Shown one piece after another: positions 47,369 through 64,000 of a stretch of 64,000 bases of DNA. The notes below the pieces were generated by a model that saw only the letters and a program-made list of their open reading frames with translations, did not search any database and had not been told where the DNA came from. How positions within the stretch are numbered: the stretch's first letter is position 1; each line of letters starts with the position of its first letter. This DNA is from Ancylobacter polymorphus (lineage in GTDB: Bacteria; Pseudomonadota; Alphaproteobacteria; Rhizobiales; Xanthobacteraceae). The stretch spans positions 3,920,001 through 3,984,000 of the forward strand of contig NZ_CP083239.1 of the NCBI RefSeq assembly GCF_022836935.1, given 5' to 3'. The position numbers were made by a program, and so were the translations under genes.

Positions 47369-48058
47369 TCAATTCCCGTCCGCATCCAGCATGAAGCCGC
47401 GGCCGCGCACCGTGACGATGAGGTGCGCCCCTTCCGGCAGGGCCTCCGCCAGCTTGTGGCGGAGATAGCCGACATACACATCCACGACGTTCAGAGAGGC
47501 GCCGCCATGCCCCGCCCAAAGCGCGGCGAAGATATCCGCGCGCGACAGGGGCTCGCCGGGATGACGCATGAGCAACGCCAGGAGTTCCACCTCACGTTCG
47601 GTCAGCCGCACACGAACGCCGCCGAACTGAGCCTGCCGGGTGTCGAGATCGAGCGAGAGCGCCCCGACCTCCAGTGTGCGGGGCTCACTCCCGGCACTGC
47701 TGCGGCGCAGGGCCTGCACCTTCACCCGCGCCAACAGTTCCTCGAATGCGAAGGGCTTGACGATGTAGTCGTCCGCCCCCGCCATCAACCCCTCCGTGCG
47801 CTCATTCACGCTGGAACGGGCAGAGAGCATGAGAATTGGCGCGGTCTGTCCGCCGGCCCGCAGCGCCTTGCACACTTCGATGCCCGAACGCCCCGGCAGC
47901 ATGACGTCGAGAATGATCGCCCCCCACGGCTTGCCCGTGGCAACCCGCAGCGCCGCCTCGCCGTCACCGACCAGTTCCACGTCGTAACTCTCGGAGGAAA
48001 AGCCCCGCCGCAGCAGCGAGCCGATATCGGGATCGTCCTCCACGACCAGAATGTTCAT
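47369..48058 (-). CDS. OmpR-family response regulator
   Basis: This 229-residue DNA-binding response regulator has a receiver domain with acidic D8/D9, phosphoacceptor D51 (IILDVMLPG) and the lysine in DDYIVKPF. A winged-helix C-terminal domain follows (VRLTEREVELLALLMRHPGEPLSRADIF, VDVYVGYLRHKL). It starts four bases inside the kinase stop codon (ATGA), so the two are co-translated. It lies directly upstream of pqqA with a 186-base gap. Regulation of pqq or other methanol genes is an inference from position. Confidence 0.94.
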   Translation of the reverse strand: MNILVVEDDPDIGSLLRRGFSSESYDVELVGDGEAALRVATGKPWGAIILDVMLPGRSGIEVCKALRAGGQTAPILMLSARSSVNERTEGLMAGADDYIVKPFAFEELLARVKVQALRRSSAGSEPRTLEVGALSLDLDTRQAQFGGVRVRLTEREVELLALLMRHPGEPLSRADIFAALWAGHGGASLNVVDVYVGYLRHKLAEALPEGAHLIVTVRGRGFMLDADGN

Positions 48059-49686
48059 TGGGCGGCCTCCAGTGTGATGTCCGGTAGCGGCAGCGGCAGG
48101 CGCACTGCGACGCAGGTGCCGCGCCGCCCCCCGGTCTCTCCCGTACTGCTTTCAATGGCGATTCGACCCCCATGGCGGTCGACGATCCACTTTGCGAGGG
48201 CGAGACCTATACCGAAACCTGTCCCTTCGCGCGTGCCCGCCGAGCCGCGCCAGAAGCGCTCGAACACATGCGGCAATTCGTCGGGCGGAATGCCGGTGCC
48301 ATGGTCGCGCACCTCGATCACCACCTCTTCGCCCTCCCGGCGCGCGCCGAGCCGCACGCTCTCGCCGGGAGGCGAGTGACGCACCGCATTGGCGACGAGC
48401 CCGTCGAAGGTTTGGCGCAGCCATTCGCGGTCGGCATCGACGGCGAGCCCCTCCGCCCCCTCTTCTGCCTCCAGCACGAGCCCGCTCGCCCGCGCCAGCG
48501 GCGCCATGCCTTCGCACACGTCGCTCAACAGGTCCGACACCAGGAACAGTGAGCGGTCGAGTTCGATCTGGCCGCTTTCGGACCGCGCGATTCGCAGGAG
48601 ATCCTCCACCCGGCGATGTAGACGGCGGGCGCGCGACTGGATCACCAGCAATGCCGCGCGCAGATCCTCCTCGCGCGGTTTCTGCGGGCGCAGCGTGATC
48701 TCCACCTCGCCGAGAATCACCGTCAGCGGCGTGCGCAATTCGTGGCTGACATCGGTGAAGAAGCGCCGGCGCGCCATGTCGACATTCTCAAGTCGGGTAT
48801 TGGCAGCGCGCAATTCGGCCGTGCGGGCCTCGACGATCTGCTGCAACTGCTTCTGATCGGCCACCAGCCGGACTTCGCGGCGGGCGAGATGCGCCGCCAT
48901 GCGATTGAACCGCGCCATGGCGAGGCTGAGTTCGTCATGCCCCGTCACGTTGACACGTGTGTCCGACCGTCCGCGCGCGATCGCCGCCGCCGCCGCCGCG
49001 ACATCGGCCACGCGGTTCACCAGCGTGCGGCCGAGGAGATGGTAGAGAGCGACCGCCAACAGGAAGGCGAGCGCCACGCCGGCCAGCCCCCAGCGGATGG
49101 TGCGCTCACGCAGTTCCCGGACCTGATTATAGGCGTCGAGGGCGGTGGTGCGCTCCTCCTCCATGGCCTGGCTGAGCGGCGCACCGAAGCCCGCGGCGAA
49201 CACGTCCAGCGCGACGCGGGCGGCCGTCGCGGGCTCCTCCGCCTGCAGCGCGAGATCGACCTGCCGGTCCAGCACATCGAACTGCGCCCGCAGCCGGGCG
49301 ATGGTGCGGCTGCGGGCCGCCATCAATGTCCGCTGCTCCTCGCCGACCAGCCGGCCCACATAGGACGAGAGCGCCTCCTCCAGCCGCGCGAAGGCTTCAC
49401 GCGTCCGCTCGGCGGCGAGAACGCGGCCGGCGCGGGCCGGGGTACGCTCGGCGTGGGGCGGCTCATGCCCGGCCTGCAACGCCAGAAGTGCGTAATCGCC
49501 GATGCGCCCCGAAATCGTGGAGAGCAGTTCCAGCCGGGTCTGCGCCGAAACCAGCCGATCCAACTGGCTGCTGACGGCCCCCAGCGCGAGGACAAGCGCC
49601 AAAGTCGAAGCCGCCGTCACGAAGACGGCAACCGACAGCAAAAGCGCCATGCGCGCTCTGAGCGATGAGAACAAGCCGCGCCCCAT
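48055..49686 (-). CDS. Sensor histidine kinase, membrane-bound
   Basis: This 543-residue protein has two membrane helices (about 11-37 and 199-218) flanking a periplasmic, coiled-coil-like helical sensor region, then a HAMP domain. The phosphoacceptor is H315 (DVSHELRTPLTVI) and the HATPase domain includes NAVRHSPPGE, DHGTGIP and GTGFGIGLALAK. It is the partner of the following response regulator. The sensor domain is Ala/Glu/Arg-rich and has no obvious ligand site, so the signal is unknown. Confidence 0.93.
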   Translation of the reverse strand: MGRGLFSSLRARMALLLSVAVFVTAASTLALVLALGAVSSQLDRLVSAQTRLELLSTISGRIGDYALLALQAGHEPPHAERTPARAGRVLAAERTREAFARLEEALSSYVGRLVGEEQRTLMAARSRTIARLRAQFDVLDRQVDLALQAEEPATAARVALDVFAAGFGAPLSQAMEEERTTALDAYNQVRELRERTIRWGLAGVALAFLLAVALYHLLGRTLVNRVADVAAAAAAIARGRSDTRVNVTGHDELSLAMARFNRMAAHLARREVRLVADQKQLQQIVEARTAELRAANTRLENVDMARRRFFTDVSHELRTPLTVILGEVEITLRPQKPREEDLRAALLVIQSRARRLHRRVEDLLRIARSESGQIELDRSLFLVSDLLSDVCEGMAPLARASGLVLEAEEGAEGLAVDADREWLRQTFDGLVANAVRHSPPGESVRLGARREGEEVVIEVRDHGTGIPPDELPHVFERFWRGSAGTREGTGFGIGLALAKWIVDRHGGRIAIESSTGETGGRRGTCVAVRLPLPLPDITLEAAQ

Positions 49687-50017: not shown

Positions 50018-50487
50018 GTTGGTCCTCGTGGCGTGAGTGCAACGCCGTCCGAGCGTTCCCCCGAAGGCCGGCTTTGATCTCTACGCCGCACGCGGCAGTT
50101 GGATCACTCATCAATGCTGCGACGCAGCAAGAACCTTGCCAGTTACATCCGGCCTGGCCGCTGCCGCGCGTTCCGAGCGCTTGTGAGCAGCCCGCGACCA
50201 CAGCCGGCGAACTATGCCGCATTTTTGGTCGTGCCGCCAGTTTCCTCAAGGCGCGACCATTAGCCATGCGCGACATTATTCCGTGGGGCAAGCGCGCCTG
50301 CCGGCGTCATACGAATGAAGAATCCCTTGCAGATAAAGGCGAAGCGGGCCTAGTCTCTCGCCGTAACGTGTCTGGTCGCGCTATCGGGCCAACCGGTTTG
50401 GTGTTCCAAACGCTGCAACAAAGATAGCCGGGACATCGGGGGACAATTCCCGTCCCTTGTCATGCAACCCCGTTCTGGGAGGAATAG
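50018..50487. other. Intergenic region upstream of fae
   Basis: This 470-base gap must contain the fae promoter. A short inverted repeat TTTGG-TGTT-CCAAA occurs near 50398-50411, and the fae ribosome-binding site GGGAGGAATAG lies at its right edge. Open frames crossing the gap are composition artefacts without Shine-Dalgarno sites. I do not see a riboswitch or RNA gene. Confidence 0.5.
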
Positions 50488-50994
50488 ATGGCCAAGATCA
50501 ACAAGGTACTCATCGGCGAGTCGCTGGTGGGCGACGGCAACGAGGTCGCCCATATCGACCTCATCATCGGACCGCGCGGCTCCGCGGCCGAAAGCGCCTT
50601 CCTGAATGCGCTGACCAACAACAAGGACGGCTTCACCTCGCTGCTCGCGGTCGTGACTCCGAACCTGCTGGCCAAGCCGAACACCATCCTCTTCAACAAA
50701 GTGACCATCAAGGACGCCCGCCAGGCCGTCCAGATGTTCGGCCCGGCCCAGTACGCGGTCGCGAAGGCTGTCGTCGACAGCGTCGCTGAAGGCGTGATCC
50801 CGGAAGACGAAGCCGACGACCTGTTCATCTCGGTCGGCGTGTTCATCCACTGGGAAGCGGCGGACGACGCCAAGATCCAGCAGTTCAACTATGAGGCCAC
50901 CAAGGAAGCGATCAAGCGCGCCGTGGAAGGCCAGCCGACGATCAAGGAAGTTCTTGCTCAGGCCGCTTCGGCCAAGCACCCCTTCGCCGCTTAG
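50488..50994 (+). CDS. fae: Formaldehyde-activating enzyme
   Basis: Fae condenses formaldehyde with tetrahydromethanopterin, the entry step of the C1 oxidation pathway that removes the toxic product of methanol oxidation. The 168-residue protein is highly typical: [20 protein letters not shown], with the active-site histidine H22, [39 protein letters not shown] and VGVFIHWEA. The other H4MPT genes are not in the window. GGGAGGAA precedes the ATG, and a terminator follows. Confidence 0.97.
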
Positions 50995-51162
50995 ATCGGA
51001 AGCAACCCTGGGCAGACAACAGCTCCGCCCGCGGCCCAATACCCGAAGGGCCTGCTCCAGCGGTTGGCGGCGATCTTCCTGAACAAGTGAGGGCCGCACA
51101 CGCCCTTGCTTGCGCCACGGAGGCGGCGGTTTCCGCCCTCTCACGCCGACGCAGATCATTTT

Positions 51163-51193
51163 GGCCCGGGGCTTCACCGCTCCGGGCCTTTTT
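51163..51193 (+). terminator. Rho-independent terminator downstream of fae
   Basis: GGCCCGG (51163-51169) pairs with CCGGGCC (51182-51188), with further pairing inside the loop, and is followed by TTTTT. It lies about 170 bases past the fae stop codon. Confidence 0.82.
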
Positions 51194-51393: not shown

Positions 51394-52107
51394 CTAGGCC
51401 GCATCCAGGCTATGGCGCACCGCGTCGAGACACGCGGGCGTCGCCCGCTCCTCCGGCGTGAGGTTGATCGGCATATCGCGGACGACCCGCACCGGCGCGC
51501 CGTCCAGCACGACGATACGGCTCGCCAGTTCCACCGCCTCACGCCGGTCATGCGTGACGAACAGCACGGTGGCCGGCCGCTGGGCGAGCAGGCGGCGCAG
51601 TAGATCGCGCAGCCGCGCCGCGCCCGCCTCGTCCAGCGAGACGAAGGGCTCGTCCATCAACAGCACGTCGGGCGCAATGGCGAAAGCGCGAGCCAGCGCC
51701 ACGCGCCGCTGCTGGCCGAGCGACAGGCGCTCGGGATAGGCCCCCGCGAGGTCGGCCAATCCGACCTCCTGGAGCATCGCCTCCGCCGCCCGGCGCCCCA
51801 CTTCCCCCGCCGGCAGCGGCAGGGCGACGTTCTGAAGCACAGTGCGCCATGGCAGCAGCCGGGGGTTCTGGAACGCATAAGCGAGGCGCGGGGTCGCGGT
51901 GCCGAAGCGGATCGCGCCACGAAAATCGCGGTCCAGCCCGGCCACGATGTTGAGCAGCGTGGTCTTGCCGATGCCCGATTCACCCAGCAGCGCCACGAAG
52001 GCGCCTTCCGCGATATCGAGATGGAAGTCCCGAAAGACCGCGCGGCCCGCCTCTCCCGCCTGCGCGGGATAGCGCTTCTCGTCGATCGCGATCGTGATCG
52101 TGCTCAT
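51394..52107 (-). CDS. ABC transporter ATP-binding protein (NitT/TauT type)
   Basis: This 237-residue ATPase has Walker A GESGIGKTT, the Q-loop AYAFQNPRLLPWRT and signature LSLGQQRRVALARA. Walker B is VLLMDEPFVSLD, with the switch histidine in FVTHDRREA. Sequence resembles ATPases of nitrate/taurine/aliphatic sulfonate importers. The start at 52107 overlaps the permease stop by four bases. With the two genes upstream it forms a complete importer. Confidence 0.92.
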   Translation of the reverse strand: MSTITIAIDEKRYPAQAGEAGRAVFRDFHLDIAEGAFVALLGESGIGKTTLLNIVAGLDRDFRGAIRFGTATPRLAYAFQNPRLLPWRTVLQNVALPLPAGEVGRRAAEAMLQEVGLADLAGAYPERLSLGQQRRVALARAFAIAPDVLLMDEPFVSLDEAGAARLRDLLRRLLAQRPATVLFVTHDRREAVELASRIVVLDGAPVRVVRDMPINLTPEERATPACLDAVRHSLDAA

Positions 52108-52853
52108 CGCCGCCACCTGTTGGCGCGGCGCTCCCAAGGCTGGAGGATACCGATTTCAATGAGTTGGACCACCGCCGTGAAGGCGAGCGCATAAGCGAGG
52201 ATGCCGGCGACATCGAACAGCTGGAATGCGGTCTGCAACTCGAAGCCGACGCCGTTGGACCGGCCGAGCAGTTCCACAACGAGCACGATTTTCCAGGTGA
52301 GCGCCAGGCCGGAGCGGGCACTGGCGGCGAAGAACGGCACCAGCTGCGGCAGGACGACCTCGCGCAATGTCCGCAGGCGCGGCACCCGGTAGACCTGCGC
52401 CATCTCGTCGAGATCGCGCGACAGCGCCGCCGCGCCCTCGCGCATCGTCACCGCGACATTGGGGATCTTGTTGATCGCGACCGCCGTGATCGCCGCCACC
52501 TCGGTGAGACCGAACCAGACATAGCAGAGAATGATGACGACCAGCGCCGGCAGGTTGAGCAACACCACCAGCCACGGCCCGAACAGTTCATTCAGCGCCA
52601 CCGAGCGGCCCAGCACGATGCCGATCGCCGAACCCAGCGTCATGGCGATGAGGAAGCTGGCGGCGACGCGGGCGAGCGTGATGGCGACGCTTTCCGGCAG
52701 CACCCCGGTGCGCGTGGCGCGTAACATGGCCGCGAACACCTCAAGCGGTCCGGGCAGCAGGCGCGATTGCGCCCACAGCGCGGCGACCTGCCAGAACAGC
52801 AGCAGCGCCAACAAGGAAGCGGCCGTCAGCAGCAGACGCCGGGACGTGGACAC
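52104..52853 (-). CDS. ABC transporter permease (NitT/TauT type)
   Basis: This 249-residue permease has about six membrane helices and the EAA-like loop (RDLDEMAQVYRVPRLRTLREVVLPQLVPFF) for contact with the ATPase. The GTG at 52853, five bases after the binding-protein stop, is chosen as start; the longer frame runs through the upstream gene and is not used. The family imports small organic anions or related compounds. Confidence 0.88.
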   Translation of the reverse strand: MSTSRRLLLTAASLLALLLFWQVAALWAQSRLLPGPLEVFAAMLRATRTGVLPESVAITLARVAASFLIAMTLGSAIGIVLGRSVALNELFGPWLVVLLNLPALVVIILCYVWFGLTEVAAITAVAINKIPNVAVTMREGAAALSRDLDEMAQVYRVPRLRTLREVVLPQLVPFFAASARSGLALTWKIVLVVELLGRSNGVGFELQTAFQLFDVAGILAYALAFTAVVQLIEIGILQPWERRANRWRR

Positions 52854-52857
52854 GGTT

Positions 52858-53865
52858 TCACTCGCCGATAGGGCCGAACAGCGAACGGTCGAAACGGGGA
52901 TCGGGTCCCACCAATTCCTCTCCGCCGATCTGCGCAAGCACCTCGAACAGCTTGGCGCAGGAAACCCGCTCCGCCTCGCCGAACGCGCCGGGAATACCGG
53001 CGCGGTAATAGTCGCGCAGGCGGACGAACTCAGCATCGTCCGCCGCTTGCATCAGCGGGCGAAGACGGGTCCAGGCCGAATCGTCGGTGGCCAGCACGCG
53101 ATTGGCCGCCGCCGCCGCACGCAGGAAGGCCGCGATCGCCGCGCCGCGTTCCGCCATGACGGCGTTGCGCCAGACGAAGCCAACCAACGGCGGCACCGGA
53201 TCGATGCCGAGCCCTCGCACCATCTCGCTGACATCCAGCAGCCGAGTGAAGCCGCGGGCATCGAGCCGCGCGGCATAGGGCCAGAAGGTCAGCACCGCAT
53301 CGACGCGGCCGAGCGGTAATTGCTCGCTCACCAGCGGCGGGGCGCCATAGACCGGCTCGGCGGCGCTGGCGAGATCGACGCCGAGCTTCACCTTTCCATA
53401 GGCGCGAAGCAGCAGCCAGCTCTTGTCGAGCGCGCCGCCGGCAACGCCGATGCGCCGGCCGCGCAGATCCTCCAGTGTTCTCACCGGCCCCTTCGCCGCC
53501 ACCATCACCGCGCCCAGCGCGTTGGAAAACGGCGCGAAACGCATGCGCTCACCATCGGTCGTGTGCCGCATGGCCCAGAGCCAGTCGCTGACGATGAGAT
53601 CGATGTCACCCGCCTGCAGCGCCACCGTCGTCGCCTGCCCGCTGGCGAAATCGACGCTTTCCAGCGCCAGCCCTTCGCGCTGATCAAGCCCCTCGGCACG
53701 GATGGTCTCCACCAGCCAGTTGAGCGTGCCGAATTTCAGCGTCCCGACACGCAGCGCCAACGCCGGCCCGCCTTGGGCGCGCAGCAGCGTGGGCGTGGCA
53801 ACGAGGCCCGCCGCCGCCGCGAGCAAGGCCCGTCGCGAGAGCTTCGTGAGCGTGACACGGGTCAT
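52858..53865 (-). CDS. ABC transporter substrate-binding protein (NitT/TauT type)
   Basis: This 335-residue protein has a Tat-like signal (LSRRALLAAAAGLVATP) and an NMT1/THI5-like type-2 binding domain. The segment LKFGTLNWLVETI precedes VDFASGQATTVALQAGDIDLIVSDW, and GRRIGVAGGALDKSWLL forms the second-domain entrance. The substrate is unknown. It overlaps the DUF3280 gene upstream by four bases. Location in the methanol island suggests uptake of a compound related to this metabolism, but I cannot say which. Confidence 0.88.
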   Translation of the reverse strand: MTRVTLTKLSRRALLAAAAGLVATPTLLRAQGGPALALRVGTLKFGTLNWLVETIRAEGLDQREGLALESVDFASGQATTVALQAGDIDLIVSDWLWAMRHTTDGERMRFAPFSNALGAVMVAAKGPVRTLEDLRGRRIGVAGGALDKSWLLLRAYGKVKLGVDLASAAEPVYGAPPLVSEQLPLGRVDAVLTFWPYAARLDARGFTRLLDVSEMVRGLGIDPVPPLVGFVWRNAVMAERGAAIAAFLRAAAAANRVLATDDSAWTRLRPLMQAADDAEFVRLRDYYRAGIPGAFGEAERVSCAKLFEVLAQIGGEELVGPDPRFDRSLFGPIGE

Positions 53866-54413
53866 GGGGCGGCCTTCCCGGTAAGCGGAGGATCGAGCAG
53901 ACGGTTGCGCACGAGATAGGAGACACCGCGCAGCCAGGATTCATCGGTGTTGTTGCGGATATCGGCGCTGTCAGCACGCAGCACCTCGCCGGTGGCGACA
54001 TCGCGCAGCTGGAAATTGATGTTGAGGATGAGGTTCGACACCTTCTGCACCAATCCGATGACCTCGATCTGCGCACCGAGGGCCTGGGCGATCGGCAATT
54101 CACAACCATTGCAGTTGCGAAACGGCGTTGCTTCCACGATCTGCGCTTGCTGTGGCGAAAGGTCCAGCACGTCATAGCCCGCCTCCTTCAGCCGACGCCG
54201 AACCTCGTCGGTGATGAGGTCGAGCCTGTGGATCTCCTCCGGCTTCGGGCCGCGAATGTCGACTTCGCTGCTGGTGTCGAGCAGTTCGAATTCGAACACC
54301 GCAACTCGCGTCGCGGCCTGCGCGGTGCTCACCGCTCCAAGGCCGGTCCCCAGCGACGTCGACAAGGCGAGAGCCAAACCAAGGAGCCGTCCGGTACGAA
54401 CTGGAAATCTCAT
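53862..54413 (-). CDS. DUF3280-like secreted protein
   Basis: This 183-residue exported protein has a signal peptide to about residue 33 (STAQAATRV). The domain begins VAVFEFELLDTSSEVD, like DUF2380/DUF3280 proteins, which build a beta-alpha fold related to the periplasmic TolB N-domain. It contains a Cys-x-x-Cys, C101 and C104, in FRNCNGCELP. Known relatives sit next to PQQ alcohol dehydrogenase genes. The start at 54413 (MRFPVRT) is used; the frame is open 16 codons further. It is the first gene of the minus-strand importer operon. Confidence 0.8.
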   Translation of the reverse strand: MRFPVRTGRLLGLALALSTSLGTGLGAVSTAQAATRVAVFEFELLDTSSEVDIRGPKPEEIHRLDLITDEVRRRLKEAGYDVLDLSPQQAQIVEATPFRNCNGCELPIAQALGAQIEVIGLVQKVSNLILNINFQLRDVATGEVLRADSADIRNNTDESWLRGVSYLVRNRLLDPPLTGKAAP

Positions 54414-54506
54414 CCGGCTTGCCTCCTCGCTTGGCGATTTCTTCCCGGCTCGCGCAATCATATCGACAAGAACTCCTCCTGCAACCCAGCGGGAAAAAGT
54501 TCCCGA

Positions 54507-54682: not shown

Positions 54683-55930
54683 ATGATGAGGATGGCAAGC
54701 GCCGTCGGCGCGACGCTTATGGCGATGGTTTACGCCTCTGCCCCCGCCGTGGCGCAGGACGCTGCGGCACCCGCCGCTCCCCCCGCCTCCCCGCCTTTGG
54801 CCGCCAAGCCGGCGGCGGTGATCGGTCCGGAACAGACGTTTCTCATCGGCGTGGTGCGCCAGCTGCCGGAGCCGCCGCCTTGGATCGCCCCCCTGCAAAT
54901 GCCTCCCGATGATCTCGGCATCGCCGGCGCCGAGCTCGGTATTCGCGACAACCTCACCAGCGGCCGCTTCCTGAAGCTGGACTACAAGCTGTCGAGCGAG
55001 ATCGTGCCCACGGATGGCGATCCGCTGCCGGCGGTGGCGAAGCTGGTTGAGGCTGGCAACCGCTTCATACTGCTCGACGTGCCGCCGGATGCGCTGCTGA
55101 AAATCGCCGACAGCTACAAGGACCGCGACATCGTCTTCATCAATGTCGGCGCCACCGATGACCGGCTGCGGCAGAAGGACTGCCGGGCCAATGTGTTCCA
55201 CATTGCCCCCAGCCGCTCGATGCTCACCGACGCACTGGCCCAGTTCCTCGTCACCAAGCGCTGGCAGAACTGGTTCCTGATGGTCGGGCGCACCGACAAT
55301 GACAAGCTCTATGGCGAGGCGGTGAAGCGCTCGGCCAAAAAGTTCGGCGCCAAGATTGTCGCCGAAAAGACCTGGGACTACGGACCCGACGCGCGCGCCA
55401 CCGCCCAGTCGGAAGTGCCGCGCGGCACGCAGGTCGGCGAGTACGACATGTTGATCGTCGCCGACGAGCTCGGTGAGCTCGGCGACATCCTGCCCTACAA
55501 CACCTGGCTGCCCCGCCCGATCGCCGGCACCCAGGGGCTGATGGCGCTTTCCTGGCATCCGACCATGGAAAATTGGGGCGCCTCGCAATTGCAGAGCCGG
55601 TTCTTCAAGCAGTCCAAGCGGATGATGCAGCCGCTGGATTTCCAGATGTGGCAGGGCGTGTTCGCCGTCGGCTCGGCCAGCCTGAAGACGCGCAACAGCG
55701 ACCCGGCGAAGATCGAGGCGCAGATGCTCTCGCCGGACTACGACTTGCCGGTGTTCAAGGGTGTCGCCGCGTCATTCCGCAGTTGGGACCACCAGCTGCG
55801 CCAGCCGATCCTGCTGACCCACGCCACCAATACGGTGACGCTCTCGCCGCAGGCCGGCTTCCTGCACCAGACCTCTCCGCTTGACACGCTGGGCTTCGAC
55901 CGCCCCGAAACGCTCTGCAAATTCCAATAA
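54683..55930 (+). CDS. Type-1 ABC substrate-binding protein of the PQQ-alcohol-dehydrogenase system
   Basis: This 415-residue exported protein has a signal peptide (to about residue 26, APAVAQ) and a periplasmic-binding-protein type 1 fold, similar to branched-chain amino acid receptors. Segments include LGIAGAELGIRDNLTSGRFL, the second-domain WFLMVGRTDNDKLYGEAVKRS and WHPTMENWGASQLQSRFFK. It matches my memory of TIGR03863, a family always found with PQQ-dependent alcohol dehydrogenases. The ligand is not established. It starts the plus-strand operon. Confidence 0.88.
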   Translation: MMRMASAVGATLMAMVYASAPAVAQDAAAPAAPPASPPLAAKPAAVIGPEQTFLIGVVRQLPEPPPWIAPLQMPPDDLGIAGAELGIRDNLTSGRFLKLDYKLSSEIVPTDGDPLPAVAKLVEAGNRFILLDVPPDALLKIADSYKDRDIVFINVGATDDRLRQKDCRANVFHIAPSRSMLTDALAQFLVTKRWQNWFLMVGRTDNDKLYGEAVKRSAKKFGAKIVAEKTWDYGPDARATAQSEVPRGTQVGEYDMLIVADELGELGDILPYNTWLPRPIAGTQGLMALSWHPTMENWGASQLQSRFFKQSKRMMQPLDFQMWQGVFAVGSASLKTRNSDPAKIEAQMLSPDYDLPVFKGVAASFRSWDHQLRQPILLTHATNTVTLSPQAGFLHQTSPLDTLGFDRPETLCKFQ

Positions 55931-55956
55931 AATCAAACGATTGCCTGGAGGAAACG

Positions 55957-56943
55957 ATGAAACGACAGATGCTGCTGTCCACCGGCCTGGCCACCCTTGT
56001 GGGGCTGATGCTGGCGGATGCCCTGCCGGCCGAGGCGTCTCCGCGCGCCTTCGTGACCAATGAGCGCGACCACACGATGAGCGTCGTCGACATGTCGACG
56101 CTGCAGGTCACGAACACCATCAAGACCGGGCGTCGCCCGCGCGGCATCATCGCCAGCCCTGACGGCAAGCTGATCTATGTCTGCGCCTCCGACGACAACC
56201 GCGTCGAGGTCTATGACGCGGCGACCCTGAAGCTGGTCAAGACGCTGCGTTCGGGCCCCGACCCGGAGCTGTTCGTGCTCCACCCCTCGGGCAACCCGCT
56301 CTACATCGCCAACGAAGACGACAACATGGTCACGGTGGTGAATGTCGAGAACAACGACCTGATCGCCGAGATCCCGGTCGGCGTCGAGCCGGAAGGCATG
56401 GGCATCAGCCCCGACGGCAAATACATGGTCAACACGTCCGAGACGACCAACATGGCGCATGTGGTCGATACCTCGAACAACGAGATCATCGAGAACATCC
56501 TCGTCGATTCCCGCCCGCGCATCGCCGAGTTCAGCAAGGACGGCAAGCAGCTCTGGGTGTCGTCGGAGGTCGGCGGCACGGTGTCGGTGATCGACCCCGC
56601 GACCTGGAAGATCGTCAAGAAGATCTCCTTCAAGATCCCCGGCGTGGCGGACGACGCCATCCAGCCCGTAGGCGTGCGCATCACCAAGGACGGTTCGAAG
56701 GCCTTCGTCGCGCTCGGCCCGGCCAACCGGGTGGCGGTCGTCAATGCCAAGACGCTGGAAGTCGAGAAATATCTGCTGGTCGGCCAGCGCGTCTGGCAAC
56801 TCGGCTTCACGCCGGACGAGAAGTTCCTGCTCTCGACCAACGGCAATTCCAACGACATCTCGGTGATCGACGTCGCCGATGAGAAGGTCACCAAATCCGT
56901 CACGGTCGGCCGCCTGCCCTGGGGCGTGGTCGTGGTGCCGTGA
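55957..56943 (+). CDS. YVTN-type beta-propeller protein, PQQ-catabolism associated
   Basis: This 328-residue secreted protein has a signal peptide ending near AEASPRA and about seven repeats of the YVTN/lactonase-like blade (for example PRAFVTNERDHTMSVVD, RGIIASPDGKLIYVCASDDN). The family corresponds to TIGR03866, co-occurring with the preceding binding protein. No catalytic residue or cofactor motif is evident. It starts 26 bases after the binding protein stops. A scaffold or binding role is inferred. Confidence 0.88.
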   Translation: MKRQMLLSTGLATLVGLMLADALPAEASPRAFVTNERDHTMSVVDMSTLQVTNTIKTGRRPRGIIASPDGKLIYVCASDDNRVEVYDAATLKLVKTLRSGPDPELFVLHPSGNPLYIANEDDNMVTVVNVENNDLIAEIPVGVEPEGMGISPDGKYMVNTSETTNMAHVVDTSNNEIIENILVDSRPRIAEFSKDGKQLWVSSEVGGTVSVIDPATWKIVKKISFKIPGVADDAIQPVGVRITKDGSKAFVALGPANRVAVVNAKTLEVEKYLLVGQRVWQLGFTPDEKFLLSTNGNSNDISVIDVADEKVTKSVTVGRLPWGVVVVP

Positions 56944-56990
56944 CTGACATTCTTCACCAGAAAACTAAGCAATATCGGGAGGAACCCCTC

Positions 56991-57428
56991 ATGACCCTTC
57001 GCCGCAAAGCCGCTCTTTCCTTCACCTTCGCCGCCCTTCTCGCCACTTCCGGCGCCGCCATCGCGGCCGGCGACCTGACGCTGAAGCCCACCGAACTGAA
57101 GCCGCTCGAACTCGGGCTGGGCAATGCCGGCTATGGTGTCTCGGAGACCAAGTACAATCTGGAAACCGGCAAGGCCTACAGCCTCGAACTCAGCTCCACC
57201 GGCAAGAAGGAATGCGCCTGGCAGGCGCCGGAGTTCTTCAAAAGCATCTTCCTGCGTAAGGTGGAGGTAGAGGAGGTCGAGGTGAAGGCCGTCGCCCTGA
57301 CCGAGATCGAGTTCGAAAAGGAAGGCGAGGCCGAACTGTTCTTCGTGCCCATCAAGCCCGGCACCTTCGCCTGGTACTGCAAGGGCATGGAGGAGCGGGG
57401 CATGAAGGGCGAGTTCATCGTCAAGTAA
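56991..57428 (+). CDS. Histidine-free cupredoxin-like secreted protein
   Basis: This 145-residue precursor has a signal peptide (to about residue 26) and a beta-sandwich pattern like plastocyanin-type proteins. The loop GTFAWYCKGMEERGMKGEF at 124-142 resembles the C-terminal copper loop of cupredoxins, with C130 and M138. There is no histidine in the predicted protein, so the usual Cys-His-His-Met site is absent. A second cysteine is C75 in KKECAW. The middle is unusually acidic (VEVEEVEV, EFEKEGEAEL). Start at 56991 is used because it follows GGGAGGAACCC. The gene is followed by a terminator. Confidence 0.75.
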   Translation: MTLRRKAALSFTFAALLATSGAAIAAGDLTLKPTELKPLELGLGNAGYGVSETKYNLETGKAYSLELSSTGKKECAWQAPEFFKSIFLRKVEVEEVEVKAVALTEIEFEKEGEAELFFVPIKPGTFAWYCKGMEERGMKGEFIVK

Positions 57429-57464
57429 TCCGTCCAGGCCTGTATTTCGATCCTCGTGACCCTT

Positions 57465-57491
57465 GTCCCCGGCCCCGCCGGGGACTTTCTT
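57465..57491 (+). terminator. Terminator or attenuator between cupredoxin-like gene and ABC ATPase
   Basis: GTCCCCGGC / GCCGGGGAC (57465-57473 and 57477-57485) with loop CCC is followed by TTTCTT. It lies inside the operon, 27 bases before the next start codon, so it may set a lower level for the ABC genes. Confidence 0.75.
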
Positions 57492-57511
57492 CTCTCGGTA
57501 CGGGAGATGCC

Positions 57512-58303
57512 ATGACGGAACCGACCAGCTCCACGCCCCACGTCTCCGGCCTGGCCGATGGGGTGCCGGCGCTCGATATCCGCGCGGTCAGCCATGCTTT
57601 TGGTGCGCGCAAGGCGCTGGACGATGTCAGCCTCACCGTGCCCGCCGGCAGCTTCACCGCCCTCCTGGGCCCCAACGGCGCCGGCAAGACGACGTTGTTC
57701 TCGCTGGTCACCCGGCTCTATGACAACCGCAGCGGCGCGATCCATGTGCTCGGGGCCGATGTGCGGCGCCGGCCCGCCGAAGCGCTCAGCCGGCTCGGCG
57801 TCGTGTTCCAGGCGCGGACGCTCGACCTCGAACTCTCCGTCCTCGACAATCTGCTCTACCACGCCACGCTGCACGGCATCGGCTTCGGCGCCGGACGCCG
57901 CCGGGCGATGGAGCTGCTGGCGCAGGATGGCCTAGCCGAACGCGCGCGCGACAAGGTTCGCAACCTCTCCGGCGGGCAGATGCGCCGGGTGGAGATCGTG
58001 CGTGCGCTCATGCACCGCCCGCGCCTGCTGCTGCTCGACGAGCCGACCGTCGGCCTCGACATCGCCTCGCGCGCGGCCGTGGTGGCCCTTGTCCGCGCGC
58101 TGGTGACGCACGAAGGGATCGGCGTGCTGTGGGCGACCCACATCATCGAGGAGATCGGCCCCGGCGACCGCGTCGTGGTGCTGCACCGCGGACAGATCCG
58201 TGCCAGCGGTTCCTATGAAGAGATGCGCGCCCGCGCCGGCGGCGAGGACCTGTCCACGGCCTTCCTGCAGCTGGTCAACGAGACGGGTGAGGCAGCGGCA
58301 TGA
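57512..58303 (+). CDS. ABC transporter ATP-binding protein, PQQ-associated (exporter-type)
   Basis: This 263-residue ATPase has Walker A GPNGAGKTT, the Q-loop VVFQARTLD and signature LSGGQMRRVEIVRAL. Walker B is LLLLDEPTVGLD, with the H-loop in LWATHIIEE. It resembles ABC-2 (drug/polysaccharide/NosF-type) ATPases, and fits TIGR03864. It overlaps the permease by four bases. Its expected partner, an ABC-2 permease, is the next gene. Confidence 0.91.
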   Translation: MTEPTSSTPHVSGLADGVPALDIRAVSHAFGARKALDDVSLTVPAGSFTALLGPNGAGKTTLFSLVTRLYDNRSGAIHVLGADVRRRPAEALSRLGVVFQARTLDLELSVLDNLLYHATLHGIGFGAGRRRAMELLAQDGLAERARDKVRNLSGGQMRRVEIVRALMHRPRLLLLDEPTVGLDIASRAAVVALVRALVTHEGIGVLWATHIIEEIGPGDRVVVLHRGQIRASGSYEEMRARAGGEDLSTAFLQLVNETGEAAA

Positions 58304-59136
58304 CCCCGGCGCGATTCCGCCTGCCGCTGACCGGCTATGTCATCGTCCTCACCGGCATTTGCTGGCGCGAGGCGCTGCGCTTCCTCAACCAGCGCGGCCG
58401 CTTTCTCTCCGCCCTGGTGCGCCCACTGGTGTGGCTGTTCATCTTCGCCGCCGGCTTCCGTTCGGTGCTCGGCGTCTCGATCATCCCGCCTTATGAGACC
58501 TATGTGCTCTACGAGGTCTATGTGACCCCGGGGCTAGTGGCGATGATTCAGCTGTTCAACGGTTTGCAATCCTCGCTCTCCATGGTCCACGACCGCGAAG
58601 TCGGCGCCATGCGTATCCTTCTGGTGAGCCCCTATCCGCGCTGGTACTTGCTGGTGTGCAAGCTCATCGCCGGCATCGGCGTGTCGCTGCTGCAGGTCTA
58701 TGCCTTCCTCGCCGTCGCCTGGTTCTGGGAGGTGGAACTGCCGCCCATCGGCTATGTCACCGTGATCCCCGCGCTCCTCCTCTCCGGCCTTATGCTCGGC
58801 GCCATGGGGCTGCTCATGTCCTCGGTGTTCCGGCAGATGGAGAACTTTGCCAGCGTGATGAACTTCGTCATCTTTCCGATGTTCTTCGCCTCCTCGGCGC
58901 TCTACCCGCTCTGGCGGGTGCAGGAGAGCAGCCTCGCCCTCTGGTGGATCTGCACCTTCAACCCCTTCACCTATGCCGTGGAGCTGATCCGCTTCGCGCT
59001 TTACGGCCAATTCGCGCCTTTTGCCGCGCTGGTGGTCGGGGGGTGCGCGGCGCTGTTCCTCGCCGCCGCGATCTTGGCCTATGATCCTTCCGCTGGCGTC
59101 ATGGCCCGTCGCGGCGGACCGGAAACGGCCAAATGA
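58300..59136 (+). CDS. ABC-2 type permease, PQQ-associated
   Basis: This 278-residue permease has six membrane helices and ABC-2 patterns such as REALRFLNQRGRFLSALV, HDREVGAMRILLVSPYPRWYLL and MLGAMGLLMSSVFRQMENFASVMNF. ABC-2 permeases usually export lipids, polysaccharides or drugs, so the partnership with a periplasmic binding protein (54683-55930) is unusual. It corresponds to the TIGR03861 family. The next gene starts 70 bases on. Confidence 0.9.
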   Translation: MTPARFRLPLTGYVIVLTGICWREALRFLNQRGRFLSALVRPLVWLFIFAAGFRSVLGVSIIPPYETYVLYEVYVTPGLVAMIQLFNGLQSSLSMVHDREVGAMRILLVSPYPRWYLLVCKLIAGIGVSLLQVYAFLAVAWFWEVELPPIGYVTVIPALLLSGLMLGAMGLLMSSVFRQMENFASVMNFVIFPMFFASSALYPLWRVQESSLALWWICTFNPFTYAVELIRFALYGQFAPFAALVVGGCAALFLAAAILAYDPSAGVMARRGGPETAK

Positions 59137-59206
59137 GCCGGCCCCTGCACGGCCCTGTCGAAACGGAAGCCGCAGAGCTTCCGGGCAATATCTCGAGGAA
59201 AAGCCC

Positions 59207-59836
59207 ATGCCCACATTTCACCCTGCCTTGCGTCGCCTAAGCCTCGCCGTGCCTCTCCTGCTCGTGGGCGTCGCCCCCGCCCTCGCCGCCGCCCCCAGCG
59301 GCGGACTCTGGCCCTGCATTCAGCGCAAAGTGCCTGAGCTTGCGGTCGGTCAAATGTGGTCCGGTCCTCCGATCGAAAACCTGCAATGGCAGGACGACCG
59401 GCAAGTCGCCGATCTTGTGCCGGTGCTGGCCGCCCAGCGCACGCCTATCGAGGAAGCGACGAAGCAGATCGACGCCTTCGCCGGCACGCTCGGGCCGAAC
59501 GACAAGCAGCGCCTCACCCTGCTGTTCGCCGGCGTGTTCGAGCAAATCAATGCTCGGCGCAGTCGCATCATGAGCGGCATTGAGCGCTATTCCGAACACC
59601 AGATCGAACTTTCCAAACGCATCAAGGAGCAGAGCCTTGCTCTCGCCAAGGCCAAGAAGGCCGCGACCACGGATGAGGAAAAGACCAAGGCGCAGGAACT
59701 CGAAAAGCAGTTGCTGTGGGACACGCGCGTTTATGATGCGCGCCAGCAATCGATGACGGCAGTGTGCGAGAGCCCGGTGCTGCTGGAACAGCGCGTCTTC
59801 GCCCTCGCCCGCGCCATTCAGGAAAAGCTTCCATGA
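59207..59836 (+). CDS. Secreted helical protein of unknown function in PQQ operon
   Basis: This 209-residue precursor has a signal peptide (to about residue 29, APALAAA). The mature part contains two cysteines, WPCIQRK at the start and AVCESPV near the end. A long helix or coiled coil lies between (SEHQIELSKRIKEQSLALAKAKKA, DEEKTKAQELEKQLL). No domain is recognised. Start 59207 is preceded by a weak GAGG. The frame open further upstream lies within the permease gene. Confidence 0.72.
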   Translation: MPTFHPALRRLSLAVPLLLVGVAPALAAAPSGGLWPCIQRKVPELAVGQMWSGPPIENLQWQDDRQVADLVPVLAAQRTPIEEATKQIDAFAGTLGPNDKQRLTLLFAGVFEQINARRSRIMSGIERYSEHQIELSKRIKEQSLALAKAKKAATTDEEKTKAQELEKQLLWDTRVYDARQQSMTAVCESPVLLEQRVFALARAIQEKLP

Positions 59837-59913: not shown

Positions 59914-60504
59914 TCAGGGCGTCGGCTGACCTTGCTCCAGCGGCAGCCCGGCCCTGGCCCAGCCATCGCTGCCGGCGGGATACCAGGCGATGTTGGTGTA
60001 GCCATATTCGGTAATCGCACGCTTGGCGGCGTTCCAACTCATCCAACAATCGGTCTGGCAGTAAAGCACCAGCGGTGCCGCGCGATCGCCGCCGGCCAGA
60101 GCGTCAAGGCGGGTGCGGAAATAGGCGTCAGTCTCGGCCGAAAGCGCACCATAGCCGACATTGGGTAGCCAGACGCTGCCGGGCAAGTGATCGCGCCTCT
60201 TGTCGCGCCACAGCGTGCCCGGAGGGAGATTGGCCGGCTTCACATCCCGCGGCATCACGTCAACGAAGATCGCGGCTTTAGCGCGCCAGAGCTTCTCGGC
60301 CTGCGCCGTGTCGATTACCTGGGCGCCCTTGAGGGTGGCCGGGGTCGGGGCCCGGTAAGCCTCCATACGGTAGGCCGTCGGCTCGGGCACGACCTCTTCG
60401 CCCCGGCCAACGGTCGGAGCGAAGACATAGAGCACAGCGGCGAGCCCGGCGATGCCCAGCCAGGCCAGCCGGTGGAGGGTGGGGTCGGGCCGATAGTGTT
60501 TCAC
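59914..60504 (-). CDS. PQQ-dependent catabolism-associated Cys-Cys-Trp motif protein (rhodanese-like)
   Basis: This 196-residue protein has an N-terminal membrane anchor or signal (residues ~14-32) and a rhodanese-like domain. A conserved cysteine pair sits at C149 and C153 in LYCQTDCWMSWNAAKRA, where rhodaneses have their catalytic cysteine. It matches the family named for its CXXCW motif (TIGR03865), though in this copy three residues separate the cysteines. A role in sulfur or redox-cofactor handling is suggested by the family, not shown. GTG 60504 was chosen because AGGAGG precedes it; the longer frame overlaps the upstream gene. Confidence 0.87.
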   Translation of the reverse strand: MKHYRPDPTLHRLAWLGIAGLAAVLYVFAPTVGRGEEVVPEPTAYRMEAYRAPTPATLKGAQVIDTAQAEKLWRAKAAIFVDVMPRDVKPANLPPGTLWRDKRRDHLPGSVWLPNVGYGALSAETDAYFRTRLDALAGGDRAAPLVLYCQTDCWMSWNAAKRAITEYGYTNIAWYPAGSDGWARAGLPLEQGQPTP

Positions 60505-60521
60505 CGCCGCCTCCTGCACAT

Positions 60522-61400
60522 CTAAGGCGCCGCTTCGATGGGGCGGTCCTGATTGTCGAGAAGGGGCACGCCATAGTCGAGCAGGATGCGGTTGATCGCG
60601 CCCTGCTCCTTCTGGATGAAGCCGTTCAGCTGGTGCTTCCAGTTCAGCTCGCCGGGGCGGATGCCGAAGGTGATGCGGTAGATGAGCGAGGGATCGCCCT
60701 TCTCCTTCACCAGTGGAACCACCGAGAGCGGGACAGCCGACTTCTTGGCGTAGTAGCCGCCGATCGGGCCCCACAGGATGCCGGCATCAATCTCGCCCTC
60801 GTCGAGATCCGCGATCATCGCCTCGGCCGGGCTGTCGAAGCGGCGATCCACCATCAGCGCGTAGGGCCGTGCCAGCGGCATCAGGCCGTTCCGTGTCAGC
60901 AAGTCGCCCGGCGGGGTACCCGCAATGACGCCGATCCGCTTGCCCTTCAGCCGCGGGTCTTCCAGCGTGTCGACGCTGGCGAGTTCCCCGTCCTTCTTGG
61001 TGATCAGCACCCAAGCCGAGCGGTAATAGGGATTGGTGTTGAGGATCGGGTCGCCGGCGGCGACATAACCCATGACCACATCGCAGCGCTTGGCGCCGAG
61101 CGTCATGCGATAGAAGCCGGTCGCCTGCGGAAACCAGGTGTAATCGAGGGCGAGGCCGAGCTTCTCGGCCATGAGCTCCGCAATTTTGTTCTCGAAGCCC
61201 TGCCCTTCCTCATTGGTGAAAGGCATGTTGGCGGGATCGGCGCAGACCCGCAATGTCGAGCGGTCGACCAGATCGGCCACCTGGGCCGAGGCCGCGTGGG
61301 GAAAGGCGGCGAGGGCGAGGAGCGTCACGCAGACCGCGACACCCCTCCCCTTACGGCGCGCCGAGCGATGGCAAGGTCCCGGCTGCGCCCTGTCCGCCAT
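60522..61400 (-). CDS. xoxJ: Quinoprotein dehydrogenase-associated binding protein XoxJ (MxaJ-like)
   Basis: This 292-residue exported protein has a type-3 (amino-acid-receptor-like) solute-binding fold. It begins LRVCADPANMPFTNEEGQGF, then GYVAAGDPILNTNPYYRSAW and IRPGELNWKHQLN. XoxJ is thought to help mature or activate XoxF in the periplasm; it is not linked to a permease here. The start at 61400 follows the xoxG stop by four bases. An ATG at 61436 is possible but would overlap xoxG. Confidence 0.9.
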   Translation of the reverse strand: MADRAQPGPCHRSARRKGRGVAVCVTLLALAAFPHAASAQVADLVDRSTLRVCADPANMPFTNEEGQGFENKIAELMAEKLGLALDYTWFPQATGFYRMTLGAKRCDVVMGYVAAGDPILNTNPYYRSAWVLITKKDGELASVDTLEDPRLKGKRIGVIAGTPPGDLLTRNGLMPLARPYALMVDRRFDSPAEAMIADLDEGEIDAGILWGPIGGYYAKKSAVPLSVVPLVKEKGDPSLIYRITFGIRPGELNWKHQLNGFIQKEQGAINRILLDYGVPLLDNQDRPIEAAP

Positions 61401-61404
61401 GGGC

Positions 61405-61995
61405 TCAGCTCGGCCGTCCGAAGCACTGGTTTTCATTTGCTGTATACGCCTTGGTCTTGTCCTCGCGCTTGCTGGGACGCTCGCGGCCGAGCGCGCCGTC
61501 AGCGCGGGCCTTGAGATAGACGTAGATGTCGTCGAGGTAGCACATGACGTTCTTGTTCTCGCCGAAGGCGGGCATGACCTGGTCCGCCGTGCCGACACCG
61601 ACATTCTGCTTGCCGTTGACGACGATTTCCATGAACTGCGCATAGGTCATGGTCTTCAGCGAGTTGGCGAGCGCCGGCGCGTAGCTGGAGCCCATGCCGT
61701 CCGGGCCGTGGCAGACATGGCACTCGGCATGGTAGCGGCGATAGCCGGAATAGGTGTACCAGTCCATCGTGCCGTCGGGCTGGATGTTATAGGTCGGATC
61801 GCCGTCTGGCAGCGTGTACTTGCCGAGCTCGTCCTTCTCCTTCTCGACCGGCGCCGGGGCGGCGGCGGCCGGGGCCTGTTCCTGCGCGAGGACCGGAGCG
61901 GGAAGGGACAGGGCGGCCGCCAGGATGAGCGCCGCAGCGCCGGCGGATGCCGGCAGCATGCCGGAAACAAACCATCCGCGAACAGGTTTCGTCAT
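61405..61995 (-). CDS. xoxG: Cytochrome c XoxG, electron acceptor of methanol dehydrogenase
   Basis: This 196-residue exported c-type cytochrome is the likely direct electron acceptor of XoxF. It has a signal peptide to about residue 38, an Ala/Pro linker, and one heme-binding motif C92-H-V-C95-H96. The methionine ligand is probably in ADQVMPAFGE. Extra cysteines (VMCYLDD and ENQCFG) lie outside the heme site, as expected for the 4-cysteine methanol-related family. It follows xoxF with a 209-base gap and precedes xoxJ, the standard xoxFGJ order. Confidence 0.93.
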   Translation of the reverse strand: MTKPVRGWFVSGMLPASAGAAALILAAALSLPAPVLAQEQAPAAAAPAPVEKEKDELGKYTLPDGDPTYNIQPDGTMDWYTYSGYRRYHAECHVCHGPDGMGSSYAPALANSLKTMTYAQFMEIVVNGKQNVGVGTADQVMPAFGENKNVMCYLDDIYVYLKARADGALGRERPSKREDKTKAYTANENQCFGRPS

Positions 61996-62204: not shown

Positions 62205-64000
62205 TCAGTTCGGCAGAGCGAACACGGTCAGCTGGCCGCCGAGATTGGTATAGTTGGACAGGGCGGCATAACCACCCACCGCACCGAGGCCGGCATTCGG
62301 GTCGGTGAGTCCAGCCGCCAGGCCGATGCCCGCCCAGCCACCGACACCCGACAGGATGGCGATGTACTGCTTGCCCTTGTGCTCATAGGTGGTGACGTTG
62401 CCGATGATGCCCGACGGGGTCTTGAACTTGTAGAGTTCCTTACCCGTCTTGGCGTCAACCGCCTTCAGGTAACCTTCGAGCGTGCCGTAGAAGACCACGT
62501 CGCCAGCGGTGGCGAGCGCACCCGACCACACCGAGAAGGGCTCCGGCAGCGACCAGACGATCTTACCCTTGGTGTTGTCCCAGGCGATGAAGTTGCCCAT
62601 GCCGCCATGGCTGTTCGGCGCGGGATACATCGACAGGGTGGCACCGACATAGGGCTGGCCCGCAGTGTAGCTGACGCGGAACGGCTCGTAGTCCATGCAG
62701 ACGTGGTTGGTGGGCACGTAGAACAGGTTGGTCTTGGGCGAGAACGCCGCCGGCTGCTGGTCCTTGGTGCCGAGCGCCGCCGGGCAGATGCCCTTGGTGT
62801 TCACGTCTTCACCGTTCTGGGCGGTCGAATACTTGGCCACGACCAGCGGACGACCATAGGTCGGGCTGTTCTTGTCCATGTCGACCTTGGTGGCCCAGTT
62901 CACCACCGGATCGAACTTCTCGGCGACGAGCAGCTCACCGGTTACGCGGTCGAGGGTGTAGCCGAAGCCGTTACGGTCGAAATGGGTGAGCAGCTTGCGC
63001 GGCTTGCCGTCGAACTGCTGATCCGTAAGGATCATTTCGTTGACGCCGTCAAAGTCCCATTCGTCATGGGGGGTCATCTGGTAGACCCACTTGGCCACGC
63101 CCGTATCCGCGTCGCGAGCCCAGATGGTCATCGACCACTTGTTGTCGCCAGGACGCTGAGCCGGGTTCCAGGTCGAGGGGTTGCCCGAGCCGTAATAGAC
63201 GAGGTTGGTTTCGGGGTCATAGGAATACCAGCCCCAGGTGCACCCGCCGCCGATCTTCCACTGGTCGCCTTCCCAGCTCTTCAGCGAGGAATCCTTGCCG
63301 ACCGGCTTGCCGAGCGCCGTGGTCTTCTCCGGGTCAATGAGCATCTCATTGTCCGGGCCCATGGAATAGCCGCGCCACACCTGCTTGCCGGTCTTGGTGT
63401 CATAGGCCGTCACATGGCAACGCACGCCGAACTCGCCGCCGGAGATACCTACGATGACCTTGTCCTTCACCGGGAGAACGGTGGCGGTGTTGGTTTCGCC
63501 CTTCTTCGGGTCGCCGTTGACCACCGACCACTTCTTGGCACCGGTCTTGGCGTCGAGCGCGACGAGGGTGGTGTCGGCCTGATGCAGGAAGATCGTGCCG
63601 TCGGAATAGGCAAGGCCGCGGTTGACGGTGTCGCAGCACATCACCGGGATGACGTTCGGATCCTGCTTCGGCTCGTATTTCCAAAGAATACGACCCTCAT
63701 TGTTAAGGTCGAGGGCGTAGACGATGTTGGGGAACGGCGTGTGGACATACATCACATCGCCGATGATGAGCGGACCGCCCTCATGACCACGGAGGACGCC
63801 CGTCGAGAAGGTCCAGGCCACCTGGATCTTGCCGACATTGTTGGCGTTGATCTGGTCGAGCTTGGAATAGCGGGTATTGGCGTAGTCGCCGGTCTGGATA
63901 CCCCATTGCTTGGGGTCCTTGATGATGCTGACCAGCCCGTCATTGGCCGATGCGGGCCAAGCATAGAGCGCCGCAGCACCCAACAGTGCTGTCGCAAGAA
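62205..64000 (-). CDS. xoxF: Lanthanide-dependent methanol dehydrogenase XoxF (5' end outside window)
   Basis: XoxF is a periplasmic PQQ enzyme that oxidises methanol to formaldehyde. About 598 residues are visible; the frame stays open to the window edge, and the first residues are the end of a signal peptide ([10 protein letters not shown]), so the true start lies beyond 64000. The catalytic site DEWDFDG (63045-63065) has the catalytic aspartate followed two residues on by a second aspartate, the DxD signature that coordinates lanthanide; calcium-type MxaF has Ala there. A vicinal Cys-Cys ([10 protein letters not shown], about 63633-63638) and the eight-bladed propeller repeats (for example [16 protein letters not shown] segments) are also present. 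No mxaF or mxaI is visible. Confidence 0.96.

Follow-up and report, generated by a model that had tools for sequence, protein, structure and literature searches.

A lut/ped-type gene cluster for lanthanide utilisation, convergent to xoxF, in Ancylobacter polymorphus

The six-gene locus

The window analysed here, i.e. the whole stretch of 64,000 nucleotides from Ancylobacter polymorphus (contig NZ_CP083239.1, positions 3,920,001 to 3,984,000), carries six genes on the plus strand between window positions 54683 and 59836, which correspond to lutA, lutB, lutC, lutE, lutF and lutG. This gene set is almost certainly a lut/ped lanthanide utilisation and transport system: the core proteins LutA, LutB, LutE and LutF, i.e. 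four of the six, all exceed the curated NCBIfam cut-offs of their families, and the order lutA-lutB-(lutC)-lutE-lutF-lutG is the conserved lut order. The locus comprises the following features, including ATP-binding cassette (ABC) components:

54683..55930, plus strand: lutA (pedA1), secreted type-1 periplasmic binding protein; TIGR03863, 450.5 bits (cut-off 413.6), and Peripla_BP_6
55957..56943, plus strand: lutB (pedA2), secreted YVTN beta-propeller; TIGR03866, 501.5 bits (cut-off 287.3)
56991..57428, plus strand: lutC, secreted protein with a predicted cupredoxin fold (AlphaFold2 and Foldseek)
57465..57485, plus strand: terminator-like GC hairpin with a T-rich tail between lutC and lutE; nine pairs, eight of them G-C
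57512..58303, plus strand: lutE (pedB), ABC ATPase; TIGR03864, 332.9 bits (cut-off 302.25)
58300..59136, plus strand: lutF (pedC), ABC-2 type permease; TIGR03861, 379.5 bits (cut-off 241.35)
59207..59836, plus strand: lutG, secreted helical-hairpin protein (44-row alignment and AlphaFold2)

A first-pass annotation of the window had described a receptor, a YVTN propeller, an ABC ATPase and an ABC-2 permease in this order and on this strand, and the four family matches confirm it. The distances between consecutive genes are 26, 47, 83, -4 and 70 bases, i.e. lutE and lutF overlap by 4 bases. Judged from the sequence, the start of lutC is most likely the ATG at 56991, which follows a ribosome-binding-like stretch (GGGAGGA), and that of lutG appears best placed at the ATG at 59207 and not at 59021. 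The hairpin upstream of lutE may lower expression of lutEFG below that of lutABC; it is weak evidence, since the number of terminator-like hairpins in the region (five) shows no excess over shuffled sequences (mean 4.4). An Rfam scan of the window at gathering scores gave no match. The single transcription unit of the first-pass annotation is putative; for the lut genes of Methylorubrum extorquens AM1, a single transcript was thought unlikely by the authors (PMC7391723).

The names used here rest on a comparison with Methylobacterium loci, in which the genes for the binding protein, the propeller, a cupredoxin-like protein, a protein of around 80 residues, the ATPase, the permease and the helical protein follow one another. 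Downstream, a frame exceeding 800 residues is found in seven of eight such loci and a lanmodulin-like EF-hand protein in three of those eight; of two query proteins from such loci checked by family search, one was a TonB receptor and the other an EF-hand protein. Given this gene order and the match of the 80-residue protein preceding the ATPase to landiscernin in the PDB (E 1e-20), the propeller is named LutB by position, the cupredoxin-like protein LutC, the 80-residue protein LutD and the helical protein LutG. The match also fits the lanthanide binding reported for LutD of AM1 (PMC7391723).

The convergent xoxF genes

Four genes for a lanthanide-dependent methanol dehydrogenase and its partners, including one associated with pyrroloquinoline quinone (PQQ), run convergent to the lut genes:

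59914..60774 (open frame), minus strand: PQQ-associated CXXCW rhodanese-like protein; TIGR03865, 218.8 bits over residues 126-284, with the true start inside the frame
60522..61643 (open frame), minus strand: xoxJ-type binding protein; TIGR03871, 289.9 bits over residues 131-362
61405..61995, minus strand: c-type cytochrome, xoxG by position; TIGR03874, 230.5 bits
62205..63983 (open frame, running further upstream), minus strand: xoxF, lanthanide-dependent methanol dehydrogenase; TIGR03075, 783.3 bits

The best PDB match of XoxF is the lanthanide-dependent XoxF 6oc5, and the lanthanide D-x-D signature (DEWDFD) lies at 63048-63065. The frame at 59914-60774 was also considered as xoxG and rejected, TIGR03865 showing that it encodes the CXXCW protein. 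The genome's second full PQQ alcohol dehydrogenase is encoded outside the window (G000:C1:3258063-3259694) and is MxaF-like with a D-Y-A motif, i.e. of the calcium type. With a D-x-D XoxF and a D-Y-A MxaF-like enzyme, a lanthanide/calcium switch would make sense, and from its gene content the organism probably has one.

The secreted components

Part of the LutA profile (30 sequences) matches Leu/Ile/Val-binding proteins in the PDB. In LutB, 12 acidic positions lie outside the generic YVTN repeat and hold D or E in all 27 LutB rows, a count that leaves out row L132, a YVTN paralogue; the paralogue shares one of the 12. From propeller topology, most of these residues would be expected on one face.

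The sequence match of LutC to cupredoxins stays below the Pfam threshold (16.9 bits vs a cut-off of 27). The AlphaFold2 model, with a predicted local distance difference test (pLDDT) score of 86.5, has a cupredoxin as its best Foldseek match (E 9e-7, probability 1.00) among 471 matches at E≤0.001, so that the cupredoxin-like reading in the first-pass annotation now finds support in a predicted structure. As regards copper ligands, no invariant Cys, His or Met column was found in 27 aligned rows: C75 and C130 are each kept in three of the 27 rows, M133 in one and M138 in 14, and the mature LutC of the window contains no His. The acidic positions E74, E81, E97, E107 and E109 are kept in 26 or 27 of the 27 rows. 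A second lutC copy was sought within the window and not found. Of note, relatives within Ancylobacter carry a LutC homologue away from the lut genes and near fae (around 0.6-1.1 kb in locus L068 and 0.9-1.3 kb in L070).

LutG was modelled by AlphaFold2 (pLDDT 90.6) as a long hairpin of helices 99-152 and 156-205, and Cys37 and Cys187 are invariant in the 44-row alignment. No Pfam family exceeded its cut-off for LutG, and since no structure matched its fold significantly (best E 0.2), no fold-based function was assigned. Searches of the PDB with the single sequences of LutA, LutC, LutG and LutF gave weak or chance-like matches at best. We infer that LutB and LutC are carboxylate-rich lanthanide handlers, with LutG as a presumed structural partner.

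Comparison with known lut and ped systems

The AM1 lut cluster (lutA-lutI with lanM) holds LutA, LutB, LutC, LutE, LutF and LutG in the same order as the window. In contrast to AM1, which has LutD, LutH and lanmodulin, the cluster studied here has no lutD and the genome gave no match to LutH or lanmodulin; on the other hand, xoxF and its partners are convergent and adjacent to the lut genes here, unlike in the AM1 lut cluster. In the whole-genome searches, LutH had no match at E≤1e-5, other TonB-dependent receptors not having been searched for, and lanmodulin none at E≤0.01. LutD gave weak matches only (E 0.02 and 0.08), none of them between lutC and lutE, and in a crude motif filter of the E 0.02 match no frame passed. 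The positive control genome (G283) matches all three proteins.

Similar reductions are known elsewhere. The pedA1A2BC genes of Pseudomonas putida KT2440 encode the same core of binding protein, YVTN propeller, ATPase and permease (PMC6839425), likewise without a LutH homologue (PMC12997753); they serve the ethanol dehydrogenase PedH and not XoxF, and neither LutC nor LutG appears in the four-gene listing of PMC6839425 consulted here. Bradyrhizobium and Sinorhizobium harbour homologues of lutA, lutB, lutE, lutF and lutG, with LutH weak or absent (PMC12628762), whereas lutC is present here too. As ped and certain rhizobial lut sets show a comparable reduction, the set described here belongs to a known kind of system. 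Being compact, i.e. with no LutH or lanmodulin match and no convincing LutD, the locus helps to define a core of LutA, LutB, LutC, LutE, LutF and LutG.

For this kind of system, the earlier statement that no transported substrate had been settled is out of date, since the genetics of AM1 and P. putida point to lanthanides (PMC7391723, PMC6839425). In AM1, mutants in lutE or lutF fail to grow on methanol plus La3+ until suppressors appear, lutA, lutB and lutG mutants are slow, the lutC mutant is slightly slow and loss of lutD has no significant effect; La3+ deposits are periplasmic in the lutA, lutE and lutF mutants and cytoplasmic and crystalline in the wild type (PMC7391723). Deletion of pedA1A2BC in P. 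putida KT2440 raises the La3+ requirement for PedH-dependent growth around 100-fold, with no difference in growth on the calcium enzyme (PMC6839425).

Conservation among the closest relatives

The gene order was compared in the best 80 of at least 585 confirmed loci, which represent the closest relatives and not a census; one of these, L138 from a Terriglobia metagenome-assembled genome (MAG), may be mis-binned. Among the loci listed by LutF, the nearest are from Ancylobacter and a Xanthobacteraceae MAG (85-88 %). The order lutA-lutB-lutE-lutF was found in 60 of the 69 best loci with at least 4.5 kb upstream of lutF, and lutG is the gene that follows in 62 of 75 loci. Similarity revealed a same-strand LutC in 34 of the 80 loci, and XoxF or XoxJ relatives lie inside the fetched flanks in 46 of 80.

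Three loci (L090, L121 and L130) carry LutEF-like pairs with no LutA or LutB nearby and possibly form a receptor-less paralogue group. The pairs of L090 and L121 adjoin genes for SoxYZ-like carriers, and L121 also has a SoxH-like metallohydrolase.

Distribution across 289 genomes

Among 289 genomes sampled from the class, LutF and LutB were counted above their curated cut-offs (40 and 35 genomes, respectively) and LutA at E≤1e-30 (39 genomes, 29 of which also pass the curated cut-off). LutA and LutF co-occur in 36 genomes, i.e. in 36 of the 39 LutA-positive and 36 of the 40 LutF-positive ones, and all three proteins occur together in 33. The pairing of a type-1 receptor with an ABC-2 permease, to which the first-pass annotation had drawn attention, is real, and these counts for LutA, LutB and LutF address the differing phyletic distribution that it had named as grounds for refutation.

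PQQ alcohol dehydrogenases were found at E≤1e-100 in 71 genomes, with up to four candidates scored per genome, and 111 dehydrogenase sequences (31 from loci and 80 fetched) were inspected for the residue two past the catalytic Asp. The LutA-LutF pair is present in 33 of the 45 genomes with a D-x-D quinoprotein vs none of the 26 with other quinoproteins only (Fisher p 2e-10, kinship ignored); conversely, 33 of the 36 genomes with the pair have a D-x-D dehydrogenase. Two genomes (G027 and G118) were classed by a DNA-pattern match inside the listed dehydrogenase match. For the class without D-x-D, all listed dehydrogenase matches were read; a second protein of G049, G174 and G270 has D-x-E, and the alignment of G277 was poor. 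G123 was considered as a D-x-D genome and rejected, the pattern match lying in a frame unlike XoxF.

Together with the convergent xoxF of the window, this association bears out the earlier observation that the set accompanies quinoprotein dehydrogenases. As the pair tracks D-x-D quinoproteins, it points to the metal and not to PQQ or the alcohol, and extends the support for a lanthanide substrate from the two organisms whose genetics are considered here to a class.

Uptake, insertion or export

How lanthanides reach a periplasmic methanol dehydrogenase remains an unsolved question in the field. We consider it probable that the lut genes encode that half of a lanthanide system which resides in the periplasm and inner membrane, and that the system serves the XoxF encoded alongside, with uptake as the mechanism. 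The substrate is very likely a lanthanide, presumably as a chelate and not the bare ion, and net movement through LutF is likely to be inward, a direction that we also infer for A. polymorphus. The lanthanide ion (Ln3+), likelier in a small chelate than naked, would enter the periplasm via an outer-membrane route and be taken up by LutA, probably with LutB and LutC; the ABC-2 pair of LutE and LutF would then move it to the cytoplasm using ATP, where it could be stored and act as the signal for switching to xoxF. The cytoplasmic, crystalline deposits of wild-type AM1 and the sensor study cited as showing lanthanide entry into the cytosol (PMC7391723) are consistent with such a route. The same paper does not decide between release of the metal in the periplasm and release in the cytoplasm with subsequent re-export.

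LutF is an ABC-2 protein: it matches Pfam ABC2_membrane (PF01061) with 95.5 bits vs a cut-off of 26.9, its three Pfam matches at E≤0.01 are all ABC-2 families, with neither PF00528 nor another importer permease domain among them, and its best PDB profile match is a 'Transport permease protein' (8tsh, E 8e-4). Its runner-up family is the drug exporter DrrB, below the curated cut-off of that family. The locus thus has the membrane domain and the exporter-like ATPase of an ABC-2 exporter, but LutA is encoded as well, whereas such exporters would have no dedicated binding protein. The combination of receptor and exporter-type permease was correctly seen in the first-pass annotation and is largely explained; why an exporter-type membrane protein is used remains a puzzle. 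Among the papers listed in text searches of the open-licence PMC literature, we saw no statement of this puzzle or of a reading of lut along the lines of NosDFY, although one may well exist.

Several observations weigh against uptake. ABC-2 permeases are exporters as a rule, and the runner-up family of LutE is the exporter DrrA (192.6 bits, under DrrA's own cut-off). Within the membrane segments that a simple hydropathy scan located in LutF, the conserved charges are Arg or Lys, none being acidic; this is weak evidence, because the scan missed the second helix. Slow growth of the AM1 lutA mutant, where lutE and lutF mutants do not grow (PMC7391723), would be surprising if the receptor were obligate. 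In P. putida, La3+ still induces pedH when the transporter is mutated (PMC6839425), so that cytoplasmic entry seems unneeded for sensing in this organism, although a 2026 review states the contrary, i.e. that the switch requires this transport (PMC12997753). Strain RH AL1 stores La3+ in the periplasm despite having LutAEF homologues (PMC10848612). XoxF (more than 70 % identity) lies inside the fetched flanks in just 26 of the 80 best loci, and 12 of the 45 D-x-D genomes lack the LutA-LutF pair; two of these, G008 and G253 (93 and 68 % complete), have LutA. Seven of the 40 LutF-positive genomes have no D-x-D quinoprotein that we could find. Three of them (G130, G155 and G191) also have LutA and no full dehydrogenase, the XoxF search giving nothing in two and a fragment of 34 % identity in the third. 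The other four (G123, G124, G126 and G227) are LutA-negative, and in none was a D-x-D dehydrogenase found; a LutF-like protein without the receptor therefore exists and may do something else.

The receptor-plus-exporter paradox would dissolve if the system were, instead of or in addition to an importer, a periplasmic lanthanide-insertion machine, in which ATP-driven movement of LutEF works LutA, LutB and LutC, strips Ln3+ from its chelate and loads apo-XoxF or apo-PedH; we regard this as unlikely. If true, the system would be the rare-earth equivalent of NosDFY, and the apparent dependence of a periplasmic enzyme on a pump directed to the cytoplasm would be explained. Against it, type-1 binding proteins classically serve importers as receptors. 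NosY is of the ABC-2 type, and nitrous oxide reductase is periplasmic, as are XoxF and PedH. NosDFY is a membrane-spanning ABC-type transporter needed to mature a copper centre of this reductase and, like lut, serves specifically the metal centre of a single enzyme encoded next to it (PMC7660919), but no NosD family was among the matches of the six proteins here. The AM1 lutA, lutE and lutF mutants hold periplasmic La3+, yet they grow slowly or not at all where growth depends on XoxF; according to the authors, La3+ may not be inserted into XoxF because lanthanophores hold it (PMC7391723). Similarly, apo-PedH loads Ln3+ in vitro, and the P. putida mutant keeps pedH induction while its enzyme-dependent growth requires the roughly 100-fold increase in La3+ (PMC6839425). 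The periplasmic store of RH AL1 (PMC10848612), the acid-rich periplasmic partners that accompany LutEF in the best loci (LutB in 60 of 69, LutC in 34 of 80) and the LutF segments scanned, with no conserved acidic residue, would fit insertion as well. It would have to account for the crystalline La found in the cytoplasm of the AM1 wild type and for the cytosolic entry in the cited sensor study (PMC7391723). Regardless, with invariant acidic residues in LutB and LutC and none in the scanned LutF segments, a mutational handle on import vs insertion is available.

It is also conceivable, if rather improbable, that LutEF exports a chelator or returns Ln3+ from the cytoplasm to XoxF, with LutA as a periplasmic receiver and not a donor. 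Drug exporters are the runner-up families of both LutE and LutF, and export of lanthanides back to the periplasm is raised as a possibility in PMC7391723; periplasmic La3+ in the AM1 lutA, lutE and lutF mutants described there is, however, the opposite of what blocked metal export would give, and a pure export pair would need no LutA, which accompanies LutF in 36 of 40 genomes. Movement of PQQ, an alcohol or some other organic compound made by the dehydrogenase appears very improbable: the linkage to PQQ enzymes, the PQQ synthesis genes in the window and older family names mentioning alcohol would suggest it, but none of the 26 genomes whose quinoproteins are all of non-D-x-D type has the pair, and these enzymes need PQQ too; moreover, the P. 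putida mutants grow on oxidised intermediates with unaltered growth on the calcium-dependent enzyme (PMC6839425). Therefore, of the earlier proposal that the system senses or moves a product, lipid or cofactor, the cofactor stands, in the form of the metal needed by the enzyme, and an organic product is disfavoured.

Genomic neighbourhood

The surroundings of the lut genes are methylotrophic and include:

41826-42713, plus strand: quinoprotein dehydrogenase-associated SoxYZ-like carrier; TIGR04557, 258.7 bits
43944-45089: radical-SAM protein, probably PqqE by its position
45397-46167: PqqC
46128-47072: beta-lactamase-fold protein, probably PqqB by its position
47369-49686: two-component system
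50488-50994: formaldehyde-activating enzyme (fae)
51394-53865, minus strand: SsuABC-like importer (binding protein, PF00528 permease and ATPase), under the NCBIfam SsuA and SsuC cut-offs
53862..54461, minus strand: DUF3280 protein, divergent from lutA; PF11684, 172.8 bits

A frame at 50350-51177 on the minus strand was rejected as a gene, being antisense to fae. The role of the SoxYZ-like carrier is puzzling. An adjacent SsuA-SsuC-like pair occurs in 36 of the 80 best loci, 15 of them outside Bradyrhizobium, in varying positions and orientations, and the SsuABC-like system could be the true chelate importer. In 37 of the 80 best loci, among them loci of Bradyrhizobium, Methylobacterium and Paracoccus, a DUF3280 gene is found no more than 1.8 kb from lutA and in divergent orientation, and its product is a candidate for an additional, so far unrecognised lut component.

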